Assembly (NCBI GenBank): GCA_900095875.1
Contig: LT608311.1
Span: 868,001-932,000 of the forward strand
Length of the DNA stretch: 64,000 nt
Source of the DNA: Caecibacter massiliensis
GTDB lineage: Bacteria > Bacillota > Negativicutes > Veillonellales > Megasphaeraceae
Direction of reading: 5' to 3'
Positions 2,435-19,281 of the stretch are shown piece by piece; the first letter of the stretch is position 1; every line of letters starts with the position of its first letter. Under the pieces are notes generated by a model. The model made no database searches. It saw only the letters and a program-made list of their open reading frames with translations, and was not told the origin of the DNA. The position numbers and the translations under genes were made by a program.

Positions 2435-5400
2435 TTATTTCACCACCATAAAACAAATCAGTTCAAAATCATCCAGCCCAGAGAATCCCATATCCTGAAA
2501 CGTAGTCTCTCCCGAAGAAAAAAAGCTGTCAATATCCTCTTCCTCTTTCGTTTCAATAATCGATTCGATAGCCGCTTCAAGGAGTTTGGAAACATTTCCC
2601 ATGTTTCGGCCATCTCTCGTCTTTTTATTAAAGATATGGCACAGTTCCTGAATGGGAACCTTCTTCCCTTTAGCTATATACCGCATTTCGTCCAGCGTAT
2701 CTTTTGGCTGCAAGTGGTGGGTAATAATCTCACCATCACTGCCAACATATACCATATAGAATGGATGGAGCCGGTTCTGATTCTTGATGTTGATTTTCGG
2801 GTTTACATTCTTTAATACGAATATCACGCCCGGCTTATTTCCCTTTGCCACAGCATGGATGCCAAGTGGTATATGCTCTATATCTGGATGGTCCTTCATA
2901 TAGGCGAGCAAATCCATGCGGAAGTCATTGAGTCCTAAATCGGTAATAGAGACACCACTTGTCATGTCTTCCAAGTCCACGACTTCTTCCTGCAGCTTTT
3001 TCAGCTGTTCCTTACGGTAGGCTAAATCGCCTTTTTCATCCTGATTGATCAGGTCATCGTCACCGGTTGAAGTCATGACAGAAATCCTCATCCTCGTTTC
3101 GACTCTCGCCTTCAGGTTGATATATTCGTCCAGCGTCAAGTCGGGCCAGAAATTCACCAGCTGAATGACCTTGTTCTGACTGCCGATACGGTCGATTCGC
3201 CCGAACCGTTGAATGATACGGACGGGATTCCAATGAATGTCATAATTGATGCAATAATCACAATCTTGCAGATTCTGTCCCTCGGAAATGCAGTCCGTGC
3301 CAATCAAGATATCAATATTTGTATCTCTATCTGCTGGATAGAGAATATCCCTGTCTTTTGATATGGGAGAAAAGCAGGACAATACATGATTCATATCTGC
3401 TTTGAAATGGGGAATCGTCGTCCTGCCTTCAATGCTGCCAGTGACAAGCGCCGTATGAAGGCCAATCTCTTTGGCTTTAGGCGCTATATTTTCGTAAAGG
3501 TATTCTGCTGTATCGGCAAAAGCCGTAAAAATAAGGATTTTCCGATTGCCCAGGTTAATGGGATCCGCTTCCTTTTTCTGAATGACTCGAATCAGTTGAT
3601 TCAGCTTATAATCGTATTCCGGCGTAATATCTTTCACCATGCCGATGAGCAGGGAAAGGGTTTCCAAGTCTGCTTTGATGTCACGCTGCCATGAAATATA
3701 ATCCATATCACGTAAATCAATCTGTATCTTTTTCCCTACAGAAAAGAAATCTGTGTTCTGATCGTCTTCATCAAAATCTGCGGCTGCTCCAGACAAATCA
3801 TCCATTTCGCTTAGATTTCCCTGCCCATTCTTTATAAAGGTATCGACAATCTGGTCCGTTTCATACAGATACTGGTATACCCTTTGTACCGTCAGCAGGA
3901 AAGAATGAACAGAGCTTTCCATACGCTTTAAGAGGTTGATGCTCATGAGGCGCTGGATACCTGTTTCACGACCTTTTCGGAAGTTCTCCGTTTCCTCTTT
4001 CGACAGATACTTGGACAGCTTGCTCGGCAAAATGAACTGCGTAGGCGTATAAATGGTAAGATTCAATTCAGACAGACATTCGTAGACTTCTTTATAATTG
4101 ATAGCCCCTTTCCGGTCCGTCAATTTAGGATACAAGGAAATGGGCTTATTTCTTGTCGGGAATGTTCCGATATCCGTTGTATCATAATAGGTCTGTATAT
4201 GGTGACGGGACCTGGCAATGGTAACAGAGTCCAGAACTTCAAAGAAGTCAAAATCCAATTGGGAAAGCAAAGCTTTCGTAGTTCTTTCTTTTGCCGGGAG
4301 CTTGCACCATGCATTATAGACGCGTTGAGCCTGGCGGAAAATCATGTCGATATCTGACTGTATCTTTAATTTTTCATTGATTTCTTCCGGGTTACCTTCG
4401 TAGGCAAGGGCCAGCTGGTTCCGTAAATCATAAAATCGGTTATTGACGGGTGTAGCAGAGAGCATAAGTACTTTGGTGCGGACTCCCGGCCTGATTACAC
4501 GGTTCATAAGGCGCATGTAGCGGTTTTCTTTTTCACCACCATGCGTATTGGTACCATTACCATTCCGGAAGTTATGGCTTTCGTCAATGACTACTAAATC
4601 ATAATTACCCCAATTGATTCGGTCGATGGGAAGGCCAATAGATGTCATCCCACGGTTACGGGAAAGATCTGTATGATAGAGCACATCGTAACGGAAACGG
4701 TCTGCTGCCAATGGATTGTTCACCAGATTACCACGATAAGTCATCCAGTTCTCAGAGAGTTTTTTCGGGCAGAGGACGAGCACATTTTTATTACGGCCTT
4801 CGTAATACTTGATTACGGCCAGTGCAGTAAATGTTTTTCCCAGCCCTACGCTGTCGGCCAGAATACAGCCATTGTATTGTTCCAATTTATTAATAATGCC
4901 AAGGACCGCATCCTTCTGGAAATGATAAAGCTTGTTCCATATTACACTATTCTTGAACCCCGTAGCTTCATTGGGAAGGACGTCTTCCGAAATATCATCG
5001 AGAAATTCACTGAAAATATGATACAACGTCATGAAATATATAAGTTCCGGCGCATTTTCCTGATAGACTGTAGAAATCATATCGATAACTTCGCTTGTCA
5101 CATCGGTAAGTTTTTCTTTATCATTCCATAGGGTATTAAAAAGATTCAACAGTTCCTTGCTTGCCGGGTTCTCAAAGCGAGTTACAATATTGCTGATGTT
5201 ATTTCCTCGTTCACAACCCATATCTACTGTTGTAAAAGAATTCACCGGCATATAGGTATAGGTGTCTTCTGGATTTTCTACGACGAGAAAATTGTTCATG
5301 CCTTCCCAGGTCTTATTGGAGCGAAATGTCGCCTTCTTGCGCATCCATTCTGCACATTCCTTGGCTACCGCTTTCTGTTTCAGTTCATTCCTGAGGCGGA

Positions 5401-5665
5401 CTTCAAATTCCGTCCCATACAGCCCCTTTTCGCGATTCAGTCTCGGAATATAGAATTCTCGTCTTTCCTTGGGCGTTTTTTCTGCAATGAAAGTGGGAGA
5501 CGTAAAAATGAACCGGAATTCATCACAATGTTCCAGCTCATGTTTAAGTGCCTGATATGCATAAATAGAAAAACATGCCGCTGCCACAGACACCTTGCTT
5601 CCAGATTGTATTATCTTGACTAGATCATCTTTTACGACCTTAGTAGTGTTATTGAATATTTCCAT
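2435..5665 (-). CDS. SNF2/DEAD-type helicase with PLD-like N-terminus (defence operon)
   Basis: A 1076-residue superfamily 2 helicase. The N-terminal ~60 residues resemble the phospholipase D-like fold found in front of such helicases, but I see no HxK catalytic motif. Helicase motifs: Walker A DSVGLGKT (271-278), motif II DESH (361-364), motif III SAT (403-405), then motifs V/VI in the C-terminal lobe (GTDCISEGQNLQ and IIQRFGRIDRIGS). It is the first gene of an operon with DUF4391 and Mod, and is likely the ATP-driven translocase of a restriction or defence system. It could be the Res-like subunit itself or an extra module beside a Res outside the window. No endonuclease PD-(D/E)xK motif is evident, so cleavage activity is uncertain. 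Confidence 0.87.
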   Translation of the reverse strand: MEIFNNTTKVVKDDLVKIIQSGSKVSVAAACFSIYAYQALKHELEHCDEFRFIFTSPTFIAEKTPKERREFYIPRLNREKGLYGTEFEVRLRNELKQKAVAKECAEWMRKKATFRSNKTWEGMNNFLVVENPEDTYTYMPVNSFTTVDMGCERGNNISNIVTRFENPASKELLNLFNTLWNDKEKLTDVTSEVIDMISTVYQENAPELIYFMTLYHIFSEFLDDISEDVLPNEATGFKNSVIWNKLYHFQKDAVLGIINKLEQYNGCILADSVGLGKTFTALAVIKYYEGRNKNVLVLCPKKLSENWMTYRGNLVNNPLAADRFRYDVLYHTDLSRNRGMTSIGLPIDRINWGNYDLVVIDESHNFRNGNGTNTHGGEKENRYMRLMNRVIRPGVRTKVLMLSATPVNNRFYDLRNQLALAYEGNPEEINEKLKIQSDIDMIFRQAQRVYNAWCKLPAKERTTKALLSQLDFDFFEVLDSVTIARSRHHIQTYYDTTDIGTFPTRNKPISLYPKLTDRKGAINYKEVYECLSELNLTIYTPTQFILPSKLSKYLSKEETENFRKGRETGIQRLMSINLLKRMESSVHSFLLTVQRVYQYLYETDQIVDTFIKNGQGNLSEMDDLSGAAADFDEDDQNTDFFSVGKKIQIDLRDMDYISWQRDIKADLETLSLLIGMVKDITPEYDYKLNQLIRVIQKKEADPINLGNRKILIFTAFADTAEYLYENIAPKAKEIGLHTALVTGSIEGRTTIPHFKADMNHVLSCFSPISKDRDILYPADRDTNIDILIGTDCISEGQNLQDCDYCINYDIHWNPVRIIQRFGRIDRIGSQNKVIQLVNFWPDLTLDEYINLKARVETRMRISVMTSTGDDDLINQDEKGDLAYRKEQLKKLQEEVVDLEDMTSGVSITDLGLNDFRMDLLAYMKDHPDIEHIPLGIHAVAKGNKPGVIFVLKNVNPKINIKNQNRLHPFYMVYVGSDGEIITHHLQPKDTLDEMRYIAKGKKVPIQELCHIFNKKTRDGRNMGNVSKLLEAAIESIIETKEEEDIDSFFSSGETTFQDMGFSGLDDFELICFMVVK

Positions 5666-6018: not shown

Positions 6019-6140
6019 GGGTCTAGTCCAACTTTGGTGGTTGGGCTAGACCTTTTTTTGTGGTCACGCTGTTTACAGTTTTGTGGTTTTGCTGGATACA
6101 TTTTGTGGTTGACTAGACCATGTTTGTGGTCAAAAGGTAT
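6019..6140. repeat. Left end of ISL3 element with subterminal TTTGTGGT repeats
   Basis: After the terminal inverted repeat there are about four further TTTGTGGT-type motifs before the transposase stop codon, plus a local hairpin made from GGTCTAGTCC and GGGCTAGACC. The matching array at the other end suggests that these are transposase-binding sites. Confidence 0.6.
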
Positions 6141-7184
6141 ATGTGTCTTCTTTATTTAGGTAGTATAAAATACGATTTCTGGTCCTCTTGAAATTACAGA
6201 ATCCATTGGCATTGTTTAATAAACGCTGTACTTGACGGTTTTTTGATTCGATATAGCTATTGTTGATACGGCGGCCATTTACAATGGTAAATGAATTTAC
6301 GATTTCTTGTTTCCAGTTGGAAAGTACAGTCAACCGTTTGTTGTATCTAGCGACGTTATCCAGCTGTACATTATAGTTCAGTACCACTTTAAATTTCATC
6401 AATACATATGCCAGGACAGGGTCTGGTGTTTCCCTGCTACATTTCAGTCGGACCGCATTGAAATCTTTGGTGAGATGTTGTAAGACATGGAAACTATCGG
6501 CACAGATGATGGCTTGGGAACAGTACGATTGGAAGACGGAGCGAAATGATTCAGACATGTCGATGGAAACATATTGAATACGACCCAACTCACTTGTGTG
6601 AGTTTCATAGGAATACGTCTCGTGTTTAATATGGCTGAGATAATAAAGAAGATAAGATTTCTTGCGGTCGGGAAGTATATCGATAATGACATCCGTAACA
6701 AAATCCATCAAGAGACAGCAGTAAAAAGAATCATAGTCGGAGTCTGGCAGATAATGCTCATCGAGAGATAAAATTGGGGGGGGCAATAGTTTGCGTGCGA
6801 TATGGACATACCTGTCGAAAATACGGAGAACCATAGCTTTAGATATGTAGTTCCTCTTGGCCGCGAGGGTGTAGGTGATTTCCGGATGTTTAAGATTCTG
6901 TAATATGTTGATCTTAGTTTCATGAGTAATGCTTTCATGAGAATGCGTGAAGGGATTCGGTTCGTTGAATGTAATCTGGCAGGTGTTGCAACGATACCTG
7001 CGTTGGAGATGCAGGATGATGCATGCTCTGTTGATGAATGTGGAATGAGTAAGTTTGCGTGGGTAATATCCATGAATATGCGTCTGGCCGCTGCAATACG
7101 GGCAGCTACAGTGAGCGTCAACAAGACGGATTTTAATGACCATAGAACCGTCGGATTGATTGAGGGTAAGTAAATCCTGGATTT

Positions 7185-14761: not shown

Positions 14762-14769
14762 AAACAACG

Positions 14770-14815
14770 AACCGGCTTTTTTCTATACATATCATGTACG
14801 GAAAAAAGCCGGTTT
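14770..14815. terminator. Bidirectional terminator between convergent genes
   Basis: The stem AACCGGCTTTTTTC pairs with GAAAAAAGCCGGTT. It serves the SGNH hydrolase on the plus strand and the AAA+ operon on the minus strand. Confidence 0.85.
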
Positions 14816-14844
14816 GTCATGCAATATCCACGGAATAATCAGAG

Positions 14845-15348
14845 TTATGCCTCATCCATGATGACGGCCACCGAACCATCTTCGCTTATGGCACGGCAGG
14901 CATTTTCATAGACTTCGACAAATGCATAATTACCGTGCAGGGCCAGTCCCCTGGCCTTTTCCATATATTCCGGCAGCGATTCGCCCCGCTTGTAATGTTC
15001 GATGATGTCCCCCGTTAAATCCAGCGTATGGACTTCATAGGGATCACCCAGGTAACACCGGGATACGATGCCAATCAGCGTGCCCCGGATGGCGATTTCC
15101 GGAAATTCCTCTTCTATGATTTTCATAAATTTATCGAGCAATTCCGGGCTGAGATGAGCACCTCCGGCATCGAGCCGGCGCAGTGCTTCACAGTATTCCC
15201 GTGAGCGTGGCCTGCGCAGCAGGAGAGCCAGTTTTCCCGTATCCATCTGCATTTTTCCCCGCTGGCGGCGCGGTGCCACCGAAAGCCGCGTATGGTTTTC
15301 GGTTTTCGTATCGGCCTGCGTCCGGGGACGCAAAATAAAACGTGCCAT
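14845..15348 (-). CDS. Hypothetical protein, last gene of the AAA+ operon
   Basis: 167 residues from ATG 15348 (MARFILRPRTQ), chosen because AAGGAG lies eight bases upstream; an in-frame ATG at 15357 would touch the ribosome binding site. The N-terminal ~40 residues are basic and disordered-looking. The rest is helical and acidic (KFMKIIEEEFPEIAIRGTLI, YEVHTLDLTGDIIEHYKRGE). No signal peptide, membrane segment or family is recognised. It is separated by 18 bp from the AAA+ ATPase gene and presumably works with it. Confidence 0.7.
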   Translation of the reverse strand: MARFILRPRTQADTKTENHTRLSVAPRRQRGKMQMDTGKLALLLRRPRSREYCEALRRLDAGGAHLSPELLDKFMKIIEEEFPEIAIRGTLIGIVSRCYLGDPYEVHTLDLTGDIIEHYKRGESLPEYMEKARGLALHGNYAFVEVYENACRAISEDGSVAVIMDEA

Positions 15349-15366
15349 TCCTATCATCTCCTTACG

Positions 15367-16980
15367 TTAGTGGCGTGTCAGGACGCGCCGTACATGGAGA
15401 CGGTCCGCCTGTGGCAGTGTTTCTTCTCCGATTGGACGGCCAGAAGCCGGAACGGCCCGTTCTCTGCCCCAATCGCGGATAGCTTCGATTTTCTCCGGAC
15501 TGGTTTTCGACAGGGGAACGACATTTTCAAAGGTCGAAATCACATCGTCATCGCTCAGTTTCCCGTTTTCATCAGCCAGGCGGTGATAGGCCAGTTCCCG
15601 GACAGTAGATTCCAGATCGGCACCGGTAAACCCATCGCTCAGTTCTATCAGTTTATCGGCAAACGCCGGAACGGCAGCCAGCCGGGCATGGAGATATCTG
15701 GCAAAATAGAGCGCCAGGATTTCCCTGCGCTCTTCCGCCGTCGGCAAATCGACAAAAAAGAGTTCATCAAACCGGCCGCGGCGCAGCAATTCACTGGGAA
15801 GCATGGAGACATCATTGGCCGTAGCTACGACAAAGACCTGTTTTTTACATTCCTGCAGCCAGAACAAAAACTGCCCCACCATGCGGGTCGATACGCCTCC
15901 ATCATTGGACGAGCCGGCGCCGGAAAGGCCTTTTTCGATTTCGTCGATCCAAAGGATACACGGCGACACATTTTCCGCCGTCGTGAGCGCATCTTTCAGC
16001 TGCTGTTCCGACTGACCCACATAGCTGCCCTGGACCGTAGCGAAATCGAGGCGGTACAAGGGTAACTGCCAATTTGCTGAAATAGACTTGGCCGACATAG
16101 ATTTGCCGCAGCCGGGTACCCCGACGAGGAGAATGCCCCGTGGCGGCTGCAGATGAAGCTGGCGCATCTGTTCCCGTTTTTCCGGCCGCAGCAGTTCTTT
16201 CTTTTCATCGAGCCAGTTGCGCAGGCCCTGAAGGCCTCCGACGTTTTTCATATCAGGATCGACATCGATTTTTTCCAGGCCGGAAATATTGGAAAAAAGG
16301 CGGTTTTTAGCCGAACGCACTTCGGCCATGTCTTCATTGCGTATCTGTCCATTGGCGACGAGAGCGGCCATGACATTTTCCGCTTCAATCTGGGTAACAC
16401 CAGCCAGTGTTGCCGCGGCATCGCGCATTTCTTCTTCGCCCCATTCGATGGGCATTTCCTGACGGTAGTCGTCGATGAACCGCCTGATGATGTCGTACAT
16501 TTCTTCTTCCCCGGGAAGGTCCAGACTGACGATGAGGCCATGGCGCTGCAGCGTGTTCCAGACGGGTTTATTGGTCAGGACGATCAGGCAGGTACCGTGT
16601 TCGACTGCCAGATTGACTACATCGAGGAGGCGTTGGGCATCGGACGTATCACTGCTGATATCCGAAACTTCTGTCAGTACCAGCGTCTGATTGTCCCGGT
16701 GCTGGGTCCGCATCATATCGGCCGCGAAATCAAGCGCTGACACAAAAGACACCGCACCTTCATCGACCGCATCACCGGTGCGGATATCGTAAATGCCACG
16801 GGAAAAGGTATGGACGAAGAAACTGCCCTCTTCTATCATCGTATCCTTTACCATCTCTTCGGCAATATCCCGCAACAGCCCCAGTATACGGCTGCGTTCG
16901 ATCGTATTCACGACAATCAGGGGAATACGGGCAATGAGGTACCGTTTCAATTGCTTTTTACATTCACTTTTATTGCTCAT
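15367..16980 (-). CDS. Ycf46-like AAA+ ATPase
   Basis: 537 residues. The N-terminal ~230 residues are a degenerate nucleotide-binding-like domain without Walker A. A classical AAA module follows: Walker A GVPGCGKS (287-294), Walker B CILWIDEIEK (341-350), sensor 1 ATAND, and the arginine-finger region LLRRGRFDE (399-407). The layout matches Ycf46-type AAA proteins, whose role is unclear; AAA modules of this kind remodel or disassemble protein complexes. It starts five bases after the preceding gene, with AAGGGAG upstream. Neighbours are three small uncharacterised proteins and a membrane protein, suggesting an ATP-driven membrane-linked assembly (inference). Confidence 0.85.
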   Translation of the reverse strand: MSNKSECKKQLKRYLIARIPLIVVNTIERSRILGLLRDIAEEMVKDTMIEEGSFFVHTFSRGIYDIRTGDAVDEGAVSFVSALDFAADMMRTQHRDNQTLVLTEVSDISSDTSDAQRLLDVVNLAVEHGTCLIVLTNKPVWNTLQRHGLIVSLDLPGEEEMYDIIRRFIDDYRQEMPIEWGEEEMRDAAATLAGVTQIEAENVMAALVANGQIRNEDMAEVRSAKNRLFSNISGLEKIDVDPDMKNVGGLQGLRNWLDEKKELLRPEKREQMRQLHLQPPRGILLVGVPGCGKSMSAKSISANWQLPLYRLDFATVQGSYVGQSEQQLKDALTTAENVSPCILWIDEIEKGLSGAGSSNDGGVSTRMVGQFLFWLQECKKQVFVVATANDVSMLPSELLRRGRFDELFFVDLPTAEERREILALYFARYLHARLAAVPAFADKLIELSDGFTGADLESTVRELAYHRLADENGKLSDDDVISTFENVVPLSKTSPEKIEAIRDWGRERAVPASGRPIGEETLPQADRLHVRRVLTRH

Positions 16981-16985
16981 TTCGT

Positions 16986-17423
16986 TTATCTGCTCCCTTT
17001 ATTCCGGCGCCGCAAAAGTACGTCCAGTTCACCACTCGGGTCCTGCCGGGCCGACTCTTCAAGGGCGTCGTCCATATCCTGGCGTGTTTTCTGCAATTCG
17101 TCCTGCAACATCTGCTTTTCTTTTTCGGGCAGACACCGCATCTGACTGGCCTGAAACAGCAAATCGAGATCCCGGTCCAGCTGCTTTAAAGCCTGTTCTA
17201 TAGGAATTCCATCGTCCTGGGCCTTACGGAAACGTTCTCCTATATAGTCAAACCGGGCGTTAAAGGCTGCCATGAGGCGGCTGGCAAACCGGCCGGCAAC
17301 AATATCACACCAATGGAGCCGTCCCTGCTGCATGGCCGGTATGGTTTCCTCATCATTCCGGCCGGCTGCAAATTCCTTCAGAACAGGGATCCATTCTGCA
17401 TAAATACCTGGTACCCTGCTCAT
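16986..17423 (-). CDS. Hypothetical helical protein of the AAA+ operon
   Basis: 145 residues from ATG 17423 (MSRVPGIYAEWIPVLKEF). This start is set by GGAGGT nine bases upstream and by an ATGA overlap with the stop of the preceding small gene; a longer open frame to 17489 would overlap that gene and is rejected. It is almost wholly alpha-helical and charged, with coiled-coil-like stretches (KQLDRDLDLLFQASQ, EKEKQMLQDELQKTRQD). No recognised family. It is probably a structural partner of the AAA+ ATPase encoded immediately downstream. Confidence 0.75.
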   Translation of the reverse strand: MSRVPGIYAEWIPVLKEFAAGRNDEETIPAMQQGRLHWCDIVAGRFASRLMAAFNARFDYIGERFRKAQDDGIPIEQALKQLDRDLDLLFQASQMRCLPEKEKQMLQDELQKTRQDMDDALEESARQDPSGELDVLLRRRNKGSR

Positions 17424-17635
17424 TCCCGATACCTCCGTACGACACCGCGGGGAGGGAGAAGATCCCAGTCCGGAAGTCCAGTGATACACTGGGAATGTAC
17501 CGTTTTATCCCCTGCCGGCCTGCTCTGCGCCGGTTCAGCTAATTCCGATGCCGGCTGTGGTGTCTCTTCCTGCGGGCGCCTGATCTGTATATGCCTGCGC
17601 CCAGACGGACGCTTTACATCTTGTCCTGTTTCCAT
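17420..17635 (-). CDS. Small Pro/Arg-rich protein, 71 residues
   Basis: ATG 17635 with AGGAGGT well placed upstream, 12 bp after the membrane-protein gene, and ATGA overlap with the next gene: strong signs of a real translated operon member despite its size. It is low-complexity and basic (RPSGRRHIQIRRPQ), with a conserved-looking C-terminal motif GLPDWDLLPPR. It probably acts as a short docking peptide or linker for a partner in the operon (inference). No homologue recognised. Confidence 0.65.
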   Translation of the reverse strand: METGQDVKRPSGRRHIQIRRPQEETPQPASELAEPAQSRPAGDKTVHSQCITGLPDWDLLPPRGVVRRYRE

Positions 17636-17647
17636 GGATAGTACCTC

Positions 17648-19237
17648 CTATATGCGGATCCGCCGCGCACTTCCCTGATTGCGGCGGACATAGTCCGATG
17701 CCGAAAGGCCATCGAGAAATGCATGCAAATCCTGCTGCCGTTCCATACCTTTCGTATAGTAATCGTAGAAATCAGCTGTTTCCGCCATGCAGCGGCAGAT
17801 ACAGTTTTCTTCTTCCCAGGCGTATTGTTTGAATTGTTTCTCCAGTTTCCGCCGTATGCCAAAGGTTGCATAGTATACTTTAAAGGACAGCCCTGCCAGA
17901 ATCAATACACAGGCGGTAATGAAAATATACTGATGGCTGGCATAGGCCGCCGTGATTGCGTTCATCAAAAAAGCCGTAATCCCTGCCAGGATTACCGTCA
18001 CAATCAGGCCCCCTATCGGACCGGCAAAGGCCATGCAAAGCAGGGCCACACCTGCCAGCAGCATAAAGGGATGATTATCCAGAACCCAGCCGCCGCCATA
18101 GTACAGAAGCGCCCCGCCGCCGATGATGCAGAACAGCATGGCGACCACAGTCCATCCCGGCCGGTGCTTGCTAAGTTCTTCCTTCTGCCAGGCATCAATA
18201 ATGGTATGCAGGGCCGAGAGATGATCCCGTTCATTTCTCCCATCTATGGAATAGAATGTCAGTTTATCCACATGGCCCTCATAGGACAGATTAGAAAAAA
18301 ATTCAAAGGAATCGGGGAGTTTCTGGACCGTTTCCCCCTGCGCATCGTCAGCGGCGCTGCGAATCCAGTCTTTCGATGACGCTATCGCATACTGCCGCAG
18401 GGATATGACTGCCTTTTCTCCGTCATCGAGGCACCAGTCCGTAAGCCAGGAAATATACGGCTTATATACAGACGGCTGTTCTTCTTCAGAACGGTCGGCT
18501 TCAATGAATCGTTCCAATAAAACACTCTTGGCCTGTTCCTTTGCTACGGACGCTTCATCATCGTCCATGAGTTTCTGCAGGTCATCCAGCGCCTTCCCAG
18601 GCAGATGCGCACCTTGCAGCAATTCTTCTACACTGGCCTTGGGAGCCTTTTTCAACAGTTTAAACTGTTCGTCTTCATTCAGAGTAACGGAACTGCGCTC
18701 CTTATCAAACCAGTCATGCCAGGTCTGGATCTGCTGCTGTATCAGCCGGGCATCCTGGCATTGCTCACTTTTCCAGTCATTCAACCTGCCTTCTACATGG
18801 CGAGATCCGGACATGTTCATCAGCCCGTCGGTATACGCTTCCATACAGTACTGGAAATGCTCTGCCAGCGATGAACCATCCTGCTGTCCCAGATACCGTG
18901 CCAGCCAGACATCTGCCGCATGGTCCCGTTCTTCCCGCAGGGAAAGGAGGAAAAAGAACAACGATGTCTTCTGGTCATCGGCCTGCAGTGCCCGTTGCAG
19001 AGCCTGCTGTGCTTTCACCCGGTCATCGGCAAGCCAGCAGATAAGTGCTGCCAATCCATATGCCATCCAGTAATCATCTGCCGAAACGAGCAGTTCTTCT
19101 GCTTTCTTTTGCAGCGTTTCTTTCGTTAGCAGCCCTGTATCCATATTTTTCAGTATGCCCTGGGTCATTACCCGGACATCACGGCTGGACAATAATGCCG
19201 TCCGCGATGCGTACTCTGATTGTCCATATGCTGTCAC
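17648..19237 (-). CDS. Membrane protein with helical-repeat N-terminus, first gene of AAA+ operon
   Basis: 529 residues from GTG 19237 (MTAYGQSEYASR). The N-terminal ~120 residues look like TPR/SEL1-type helical repeats (WMAYGLAALICWLADDRVKA), followed by an acidic helical middle. Residues of about 355-455 contain four or more hydrophobic segments (AMLFCIIGGGALLYYGGGW, MLLAGVALLCMAFAGPIGG, LIVTVILAGITAFLMNAIT, YIFITACVLILAGLSF). The C-terminus is soluble. No family is recognised. As first gene it probably anchors the complex formed with the AAA+ ATPase and the small proteins. A TATAAT at 19281-19276 lies about 40 bp upstream. Confidence 0.75.
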   Translation of the reverse strand: MTAYGQSEYASRTALLSSRDVRVMTQGILKNMDTGLLTKETLQKKAEELLVSADDYWMAYGLAALICWLADDRVKAQQALQRALQADDQKTSLFFFLLSLREERDHAADVWLARYLGQQDGSSLAEHFQYCMEAYTDGLMNMSGSRHVEGRLNDWKSEQCQDARLIQQQIQTWHDWFDKERSSVTLNEDEQFKLLKKAPKASVEELLQGAHLPGKALDDLQKLMDDDEASVAKEQAKSVLLERFIEADRSEEEQPSVYKPYISWLTDWCLDDGEKAVISLRQYAIASSKDWIRSAADDAQGETVQKLPDSFEFFSNLSYEGHVDKLTFYSIDGRNERDHLSALHTIIDAWQKEELSKHRPGWTVVAMLFCIIGGGALLYYGGGWVLDNHPFMLLAGVALLCMAFAGPIGGLIVTVILAGITAFLMNAITAAYASHQYIFITACVLILAGLSFKVYYATFGIRRKLEKQFKQYAWEEENCICRCMAETADFYDYYTKGMERQQDLHAFLDGLSASDYVRRNQGSARRIRI

Positions 19238-19275
19238 ACCTACGCGCCCCCTGAACTATGATATAACTATGTTAT

Positions 19276-19281
19276 ATTATA
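19276..19281 (-). promoter_or_regulatory. -10 box for AAA+ operon
   Basis: TATAAT on the minus strand, about 38 bp before the GTG start. No good -35 box is seen at 17 bp (only T-rich sequence), so this is tentative. Confidence 0.45.

Follow-up and report, generated by a model that had tools for sequence, protein, structure and literature searches.

The window, a 64,000-nucleotide stretch of Caecibacter massiliensis contig LT608311.1, carries on its minus strand, between positions 14845 and 19237, five intact open reading frames (ORFs) that form an apparent single transcription unit in the order A, B, C, AAA, E, referred to here as the module. Gene A (17648–19237) encodes 529 residues from a GTG start and is followed by gene B (17420–17635), which encodes the 71-residue protein with the DWDLLPPR motif that an earlier sequence-only reading had singled out. 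Gene C (16986–17423) encodes 145 residues and the AAA gene (15367–16980) an ATPase of 537 residues. Gene E (14845–15348) encodes 167 residues from the ATG at 15348, or 170 residues from the longest start at 15357. A and B are separated by 12 bp, B and C share a 4-bp ATGA overlap, C and AAA are separated by 5 bp, and the AAA–E spacing is 9 bp to the longest E start and 18 bp to the ATG at 15348. The 18-bp gap is the correct one because the E family alignment favours the second start, and all four junctions are thus as the sequence-only reading described them. Of the ribosome binding sites claimed there for each gene, Shine-Dalgarno-like sequences are visible by eye ahead of B, C, AAA and E; the GTG start of A is less certain than the other four starts.

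A strong hairpin at 14764–14820 (−29 kcal/mol, z −6.38, with none of 200 shuffles equally stable) lies between E and a convergent, plus-strand SGNH-like gene, and is read as the terminator for both. Together with the intact, co-directional ORFs, it agrees with the tight five-gene unit proposed from the sequence. Upstream of A, the palindrome ATATAAC-TAT-GTTATAT (19261–19277) is a possible operator; it is absent from the other module loci. A search upstream of the module in 78 loci for CIRCE, CtsR, LexA and sigma-32-like sites returned a single LexA-like match.

Module proteins

The AAA protein is the only module protein of the window that passes a curated cut-off (PF00004 in Pfam, 101.6 bits against a cut-off of 21.2); AAA models in NCBIfam are also matched, all below their cut-offs. 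The C-terminal AAA domain contains Walker A (GVPGCGKS), Walker B (LWIDE), sensor 1 (ATAND) and arginine finger (RRGRFDE) motifs, and residues G287–K293, D346–E347, N389 and R400/R403 are invariant in all 13 aligned ATPases. Judged by these intact motifs, the domain is predicted to be active. The N-terminal part has no Walker A motif and appears AAA-like by eye, and the protein ends in RRVLTRH. Pfam gave no MIT match in this protein up to E 1, and no match to the M41 peptidase that would mark it as an FtsH.

The name Ycf46, which had been given to the AAA protein, is a presumed label. Plasmid and phage relatives among the Ycf46-type and Cdc48/Vps4-like ATPases align at 28–35% over most of its length and resemble it in carrying, ahead of the active AAA domain, another domain that lacks Walker A. 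The module ATPases, however, form their own clade against 16 outgroup sequences, and those 16 are not accompanied by A, B, C or E. The anti-phage system IetAS is also built around an AAA ATPase, and IetA models are the best PADLOC hits of the AAA protein (98.8 bits), but the NCBIfam cut-off for IetA is 510 bits and the AAA protein scores 76.2. IetAS includes the protease partner IetS; Pfam, searched up to E 1, showed no peptidase match in any of the four partners. A second related ATPase in the window's genome (locus L002, G000:C2:2475087-2476100; 35% identity) lies beside a WYL-type regulator, and its 4-kb locus shows no sign of a partner gene, both as judged by eye.

The AlphaFold2 model of A (predicted local distance difference test, pLDDT, 84) has a TPR-like N-terminal domain at residues ~14–140, a helical middle region with a β-hairpin at 311–330, and a long C-terminal helix; the protein ends in ARRIRI. 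The TPR-like character noted earlier is therefore visible in the model, with fold matches at the level of common TPR arrangements. Against TPR chains, the best VIA-align score is Z 9.2 (root-mean-square deviation 4.6, 96 residues aligned), in a range, below a Z of about 13, that the program's own note says may reflect just a common arrangement; Foldseek finds peptide-binding TPR domains such as those of CHIP and PEX5 at E 0.18 or worse, and none at 0.001. Hydropathy predicts three hydrophobic segments in the window protein, at ~361–455. The description of A as a multi-pass membrane protein holds for this protein and does not extend to the family, in which 73 of the 76 A proteins longer than 500 residues have one such segment (41) or two (32).

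B is a short protein, probably disordered to judge from its composition, and ends in LPDWDLLPPRGVVRRYRE. Its W-D-L-P motif, [FLI]-[PAS]-x-W-[DNS]-[LIV]-x-P, is present in 69 of 69 B proteins and in 1 of 24,761 other ORFs, the latter being the informative figure because the pattern was drawn from B itself. B was undetected in 16 of 78 loci, several of them cut, and a short B-like stretch was found in one (L133) of nine of these that were checked. A CxxC-CxxC pair occurs in 12 of the 69 B ORFs, and in locus L123 a B-like end is, by eye, fused to A. C is probably a helical protein without a curated family, and searches with it returned chance-level hits to helical chains only. E is modelled as an α/β protein (pLDDT 81) with the N-terminal sequence MARFIL; C101, H110, H121 and E148, numbered from the 15357 start, are invariant in a 39-row alignment. 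Fold searches with E gave no match of note (Foldseek best E 0.17, VIA-align best Z 2.8, viral library best E 0.078).

Four of the five genes represent protein families that the searched libraries do not list. In Pfam, A, C and E gave matches below cut-off only (17.2, 11.0 and 13.3 bits) and B gave none. NCBIfam returned nothing for the four window proteins except two C hits far below cut-off, and nothing for ten further proteins from other phyla or from a longer variant of the module. The window proteins matched no PADLOC 2.0.0 family up to E 1 and no PHROGs family; the Streptococcus oralis homologues matched PHROGs weakly (A at E 4e-5, E at 0.0017 and C at 0.0081), and a viral-collection scan with A alone confirmed no relative. 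The view that the small proteins belong to no recognised family is upheld by these searches, and the profile libraries assign the genes to no pathway. The five-gene set is not described in the available portions of the literature on bacterial AAA/TPR/SPFH systems or rpsD satellites; the supplement to Ravi et al. 2024 (PMC11237479) lies outside that scope, and the module may belong to the cases in it.

Conservation and gene order

A scan with the ATPase alignment, using one genome per species, found at least 557 relatives, of which the best 80 were kept. In the best 64 loci (L083–L146; E of 9e-101 or below), at least one partner among A, B, C and E accompanies the ATPase in 63, and the lone exception (L145) begins 26 bp from a contig end. 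None of the remaining 16 (E 2e-87 or weaker) has any of the four partners. Among 80 ATPase loci from viral contigs, all five genes are present in 2 and no partner in 78. In the ATPase tree, 74 module ATPases form one clade against 16 others (SH-aLRT 100). By their record titles, the hosts belong to Bacillota, Mycoplasmatota, Fusobacteriota, Pseudomonadota, Bacteroidota, Actinomycetota and Vulcanimicrobiota; many are metagenome bins, and the cultured carriers include S. oralis, Paenibacillus, Chryseobacterium and Comamonas. The five genes thus constitute a stable genetic unit across seven phyla, and because of this conservation the set is not due to chance.

The neighbourhoods read in Negativicutes and in other phyla retain the set beside the ATPase, in line with the sequence-only reading. 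A is present in 17 of 380 Negativicutes genomes, including the window's own, and in 1 of 17 genomes of the window's family, which is the window's genome itself. Seventeen stretches from the 16 other Negativicutes genomes were examined, and A is accompanied by C, the ATPase and E in 14 of these genomes. Exceptions to strict linkage are a broken A alone (G146), A with B only (G304) and a lone second A in addition to a complete set (G140). The A gene is interrupted, giving two ORFs, in genomes G029 and G151.

Two gene orders predominate among 78 dereplicated loci: E-A-B-C-AAA (26) and A-B-C-AAA-E (25), the latter being the order in the window. The others are E-A-C-AAA (6), A-B-C-AAA (5), A-A-B-C-AAA-A (5), and further, partial or cut arrangements (11). 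These counts, and those of the terminal tag described below, leave out loci identical or nearly identical to a retained one (L061, L068, L069, L076, L090, L163), loci without the ATPase (L072, L073, L078) and a short contig with overlapping ORFs (L080); the tree additionally leaves out L099, L116, L141 and L143.

The longer A-A-B-C-AAA-A variant is preceded by three genes common to four of its five loci (L137, L139, L140, L142). The first, scanned in L140, encodes a zinc-ribbon protein of the SPFH/Band-7 type (PF13421, 119 bits), which supports a membrane link for the module. The second encodes ~240 residues and looks membrane-spanning by eye, and the third encodes 660–670 residues with a zinc-ribbon-like start; one example of each was scanned and no Pfam family was found over cut-off. 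Just upstream of another such variant lies an 895-residue protein with a long run of PELPIE-type repeats (L136:2508-5195).

The SPFH partner raises the idea that the module is an envelope-stress device of the PSP/SPFH kind, an analogue of ESCRT-III/Vps4 in which A or C takes the place of PspA. The nearest published arrangements that we found are those of Ravi et al. 2024 (PMC11237479), in which bacterial Vps4-like ATPases adjoin a TPR plus 6TM protein and the partner of PspA is an ATPase with an inactive first AAA domain. The likeness consists of an AAA+ ATPase adjoining a TPR membrane protein, or having an inactive first AAA domain, with a membrane-proximal role proposed. The Ydj-type PspA/band-7/zinc-ribbon loci of Bacillota described there (PMC11237479) likewise recall the PF13421 protein upstream of the longer variant. 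In a single case, ~2 kb separate the ATPase from a PspA-family gene that contains an in-frame stop (Shimazuella kribbensis, L114:13490-14119). The differences weigh more, and make this reading an unlikely one. No B-, C- or E-like partners are mentioned for these systems in the available portion of that paper (PMC11237479), the window's module contains no SPFH or PspA gene, and PspA homology was not found: hhalign against a five-sequence PspA alignment gave a probability of 1.0% for C and 0.3% for A. Five of nine module genomes, among them that of the window, have no PspA, and the AAA protein lacks an MIT match. Fold searches with A and E, which bear on the same question, showed no clear match.

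Each neighbour family is confined to at most 9 of 88 loci, so the genes around the module give no pathway. The module of L064 comes after hrcA-grpE-dnaK-dnaJ (named by eye); a heat-shock link was considered and dropped because a long inverted repeat with a T run separates the module from those genes. The same survey bears on the proposal of a secretion or surface-assembly machine, in which the ATPase would power the assembly or export of a product through A. The combination of an AAA protein, a membrane protein and small proteins would suit such a machine, and a related ATPase (35%) on a Treponema succinifaciens plasmid (L063) lies inside a contractile-injection-type cluster. Against this, no cargo gene stands out among the neighbour families, in a survey that did not include a search for signal peptides, A mostly has one or two hydrophobic segments, and both Gram-positive and Gram-negative hosts carry the module; we regard the proposal as improbable.

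Distribution and mobile elements

By its distribution and the ATPase tree, the module is rare, patchily distributed and transferred sideways. It was found in 5 of 197 Streptococcus genomes (including the search centre), in 1 of 200 genomes of the Comamonas denitrificans family (the search centre itself), and as two clear cases, one of them the window's genome, in 398 genomes of the window's phylum, where the other six hits are short and weak. In the tree, Streptococcus, Enterococcus and one Fusobacterium are nested among Clostridia and Negativicutes, and Paenibacillus, Planococcus and Shimazuella cluster with Pseudomonadota (support 96).

In streptococci at least, we read the module as cargo carried by elements that are or once were mobile. 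In four of the five carriers, A starts 0.8–0.9 kb from rpsD, described in one study of group B Streptococcus as a site where phage-inducible islands integrate (PMC7487436), and an integrase remnant lies between the two in three of these four. The fifth carrier (G553) has the module elsewhere, ~4 kb from an integrase-like gene. Among five module-free relatives, two have a 389-residue integrase at rpsD, 96% like one remnant; the other three have, respectively, two small ORFs before a conserved 60-residue gene (rpmF by eye), a row of small ORFs, and unrelated genes. No attachment repeats of 12 bp or longer were found around the module in the two streptococcal loci tried.

The full module is also present in the record of the satellite Javan368 and in three plasmid-collection records. 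The Javan368 border may be too wide, because an integrase remnant stands between the module and the satellite genes. Of 1692 plasmid-collection records matching the ATPase, the four best are 51–64% identical and the next listed is 35%. One of these four, from Fusobacterium vincentii (L058, NZ_CP084075.1), is a 2.1-Mb record filed as a plasmid, whose size and genes, seen by eye, suggest a chromosome. Among 50,697 phage records, one of 136 matches exceeds 60% (65%) and the next listed is 28%. A clean empty site in the window's genus was sought and rejected as a candidate: the permease gene adjoining A is kept in relatives at 76–80% identity, its neighbours differ in the four such loci read, and the SGNH-like gene has elsewhere only relatives of 42–46%.

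Carriage of this kind would be expected of anti-phage defence, in which an AAA+ complex would sense infection at the membrane and block the phage or kill the cell, hence its spread by islands, satellites and plasmids. Patchiness, sideways transfer, the position near rpsD at the published phage-inducible-island site, the integrases there with and without the module, and the Javan368 and plasmid records all speak for this explanation, as do strong matches of single neighbours to models such as PD-Lambda-1, JetC/JetD, PD-T4-6, SspH and AbiD (among the matches listed). PADLOC, however, matches none of the four partners, and no sign of defence-gene enrichment is seen nearby: 256 neighbours gave 95 and 27 PADLOC families against 106 for 132 control genes, with strong hits among the controls too, the counts being of families rather than proteins and the hits the best 25 in each listing. 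The neighbour set comprises 256 genes from 52 module loci of under 58% G+C content, and the control is a small set, 132 of 189 listed genes, from the wider flanks of other ATPase loci. The sparse phage matches, the plasmid set with its 2.1-Mb member, and the possible overreach of the Javan368 record also count against defence, which we consider a minority possibility, though the best placed of the alternatives. The general class suggested by the sequence-only reading, a secretion, assembly or defence complex, is a candidate only.

Terminal tag and proposed complex

Several module proteins that are otherwise unrelated have look-alike termini: ends such as TRKVLV (ATPase), RRIKI (A) and GRKIIF (C), and starts such as MPRPML or MARIIL (E). 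We counted this tag as the pattern [RK].?[IVLM].?[IVLMF] within the 8 C-terminal or 9 N-terminal residues; in 805 neighbour genes, the control rate is 14.3% for C-termini and 19.1% for N-termini. Where E is the first gene, the tag is present in 33/33 AAA proteins, 26/33 C, 19/33 A, 18/33 E and 12/26 B starts; where E is last, it is present in 25/29 AAA proteins, 22/26 A and 25/29 E. Loci without E, cut ones included, have it less often (AAA 5/16, A 4/13, C 4/14, B start 4/10, B end 1/10). A stricter, earlier pattern gave AAA 63/78, C 30/75, A 25/72, E 30/62, B start 16/62 and B end 6/62, with controls at 12%. The tail is missing from the ATPase in the 11 complete loci that have no E, the single pattern match (L139) being judged spurious. 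On the tree, with the E state set as unknown for the contig-cut loci L112, L138 and L145 and the L139 tail set by hand as absent, E was lost once and the ATPase tail changed twice, which amounts to one independent pair. The recurrence of this basic-hydrophobic tag suggests a shared docking site.

ClpX recognizes a MuA-type C-terminal motif in which basic residues precede hydrophobic ones. Many of the C-termini have tails like TRKVLV or GRKIIF; these could be degradation signals, and the module a regulated, short-lived set of proteins. In one locus, a 1132-residue fusion of AAA_2, AAA and FtsH-type M41 peptidase domains (L083:6758-10156) follows E by 15 bp. That protease is a single case, and the tag also occurs at the N-terminus, on E; we think it very improbable that the tags serve this end.

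On balance, and by a slight margin over even odds, we favour the explanation that the products of the five genes make up a single accessory AAA+ remodelling complex tethered to the membrane. Here A would anchor the complex at the membrane, its TPR domain holding the partners, and the ATPase ring would be the motor, pulling on or dismantling a membrane-located substrate in the manner of Cdc48/Vps4-type ATPases. B and C may be adaptors, and E a sensor, cap or enzyme. The tags on A, E and the AAA protein, and on C in one of the gene orders, are most simply taken for copies of one docking peptide, so that several subunits would share one docking site, with E or the TPR domain of A as candidate receptors. 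With the module carried, at least in streptococci, by elements that are or once were mobile, the complex might provide the cell with an optional service, for example handling envelope damage or an invader. The single uncharacterised machine envisaged from the sequence is supported by the conserved neighbourhoods and by the libraries' silence on a pathway; we infer a joint machine from that conservation.

A number of observations weigh against this explanation. We infer the contacts between the products, the substrate and the role, and the membrane segments are predicted by hydropathy. The modelled fold of A matches only at the level of common TPR arrangements, fold searches with E give no match hinting at function, and the low recurrence of neighbour families offers no context. 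A occurs without the ATPase, C and E in three Negativicutes loci (L072, L073, L078). The tag is poor in C (4/28) and at the B start (3/26) where E is last, and at the B end in both orders (E-first 3/26, E-last 1/26). Its pattern was chosen post hoc from the tails and loosened once, and the loci are related, so that the tag numbers describe and do not prove. The joint loss of E and the tail rests on one event, since the tree needs one E change and two tail changes, and in six single-A loci without E, A keeps an RNIxI-like or VRTVIR tail by eye.

A fuller version of the proposal, which we put forward tentatively, is that of a horizontally spread machine of an entirely new category: a membrane-anchored AAA+ complex whose unrelated subunits carry one short terminal tag for a common receptor, and which may act as an optional device for envelope surveillance or response to invaders. 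A unit kept together from Actinomycetota to Bacteroidota, with four families unlisted, marks a clear gap in knowledge of bacterial AAA+ machines. Its function is testable because the module has defined borders, conserved motifs and cultured hosts, and the shared tag offers a concrete, cheap hypothesis for how such complexes hold together.

Elsewhere in the window, a minus-strand ORF of 1076 residues, of unassigned kind, lies at 2435-5665, and an ORF that appears transposase-like by eye lies at 6130-7143.

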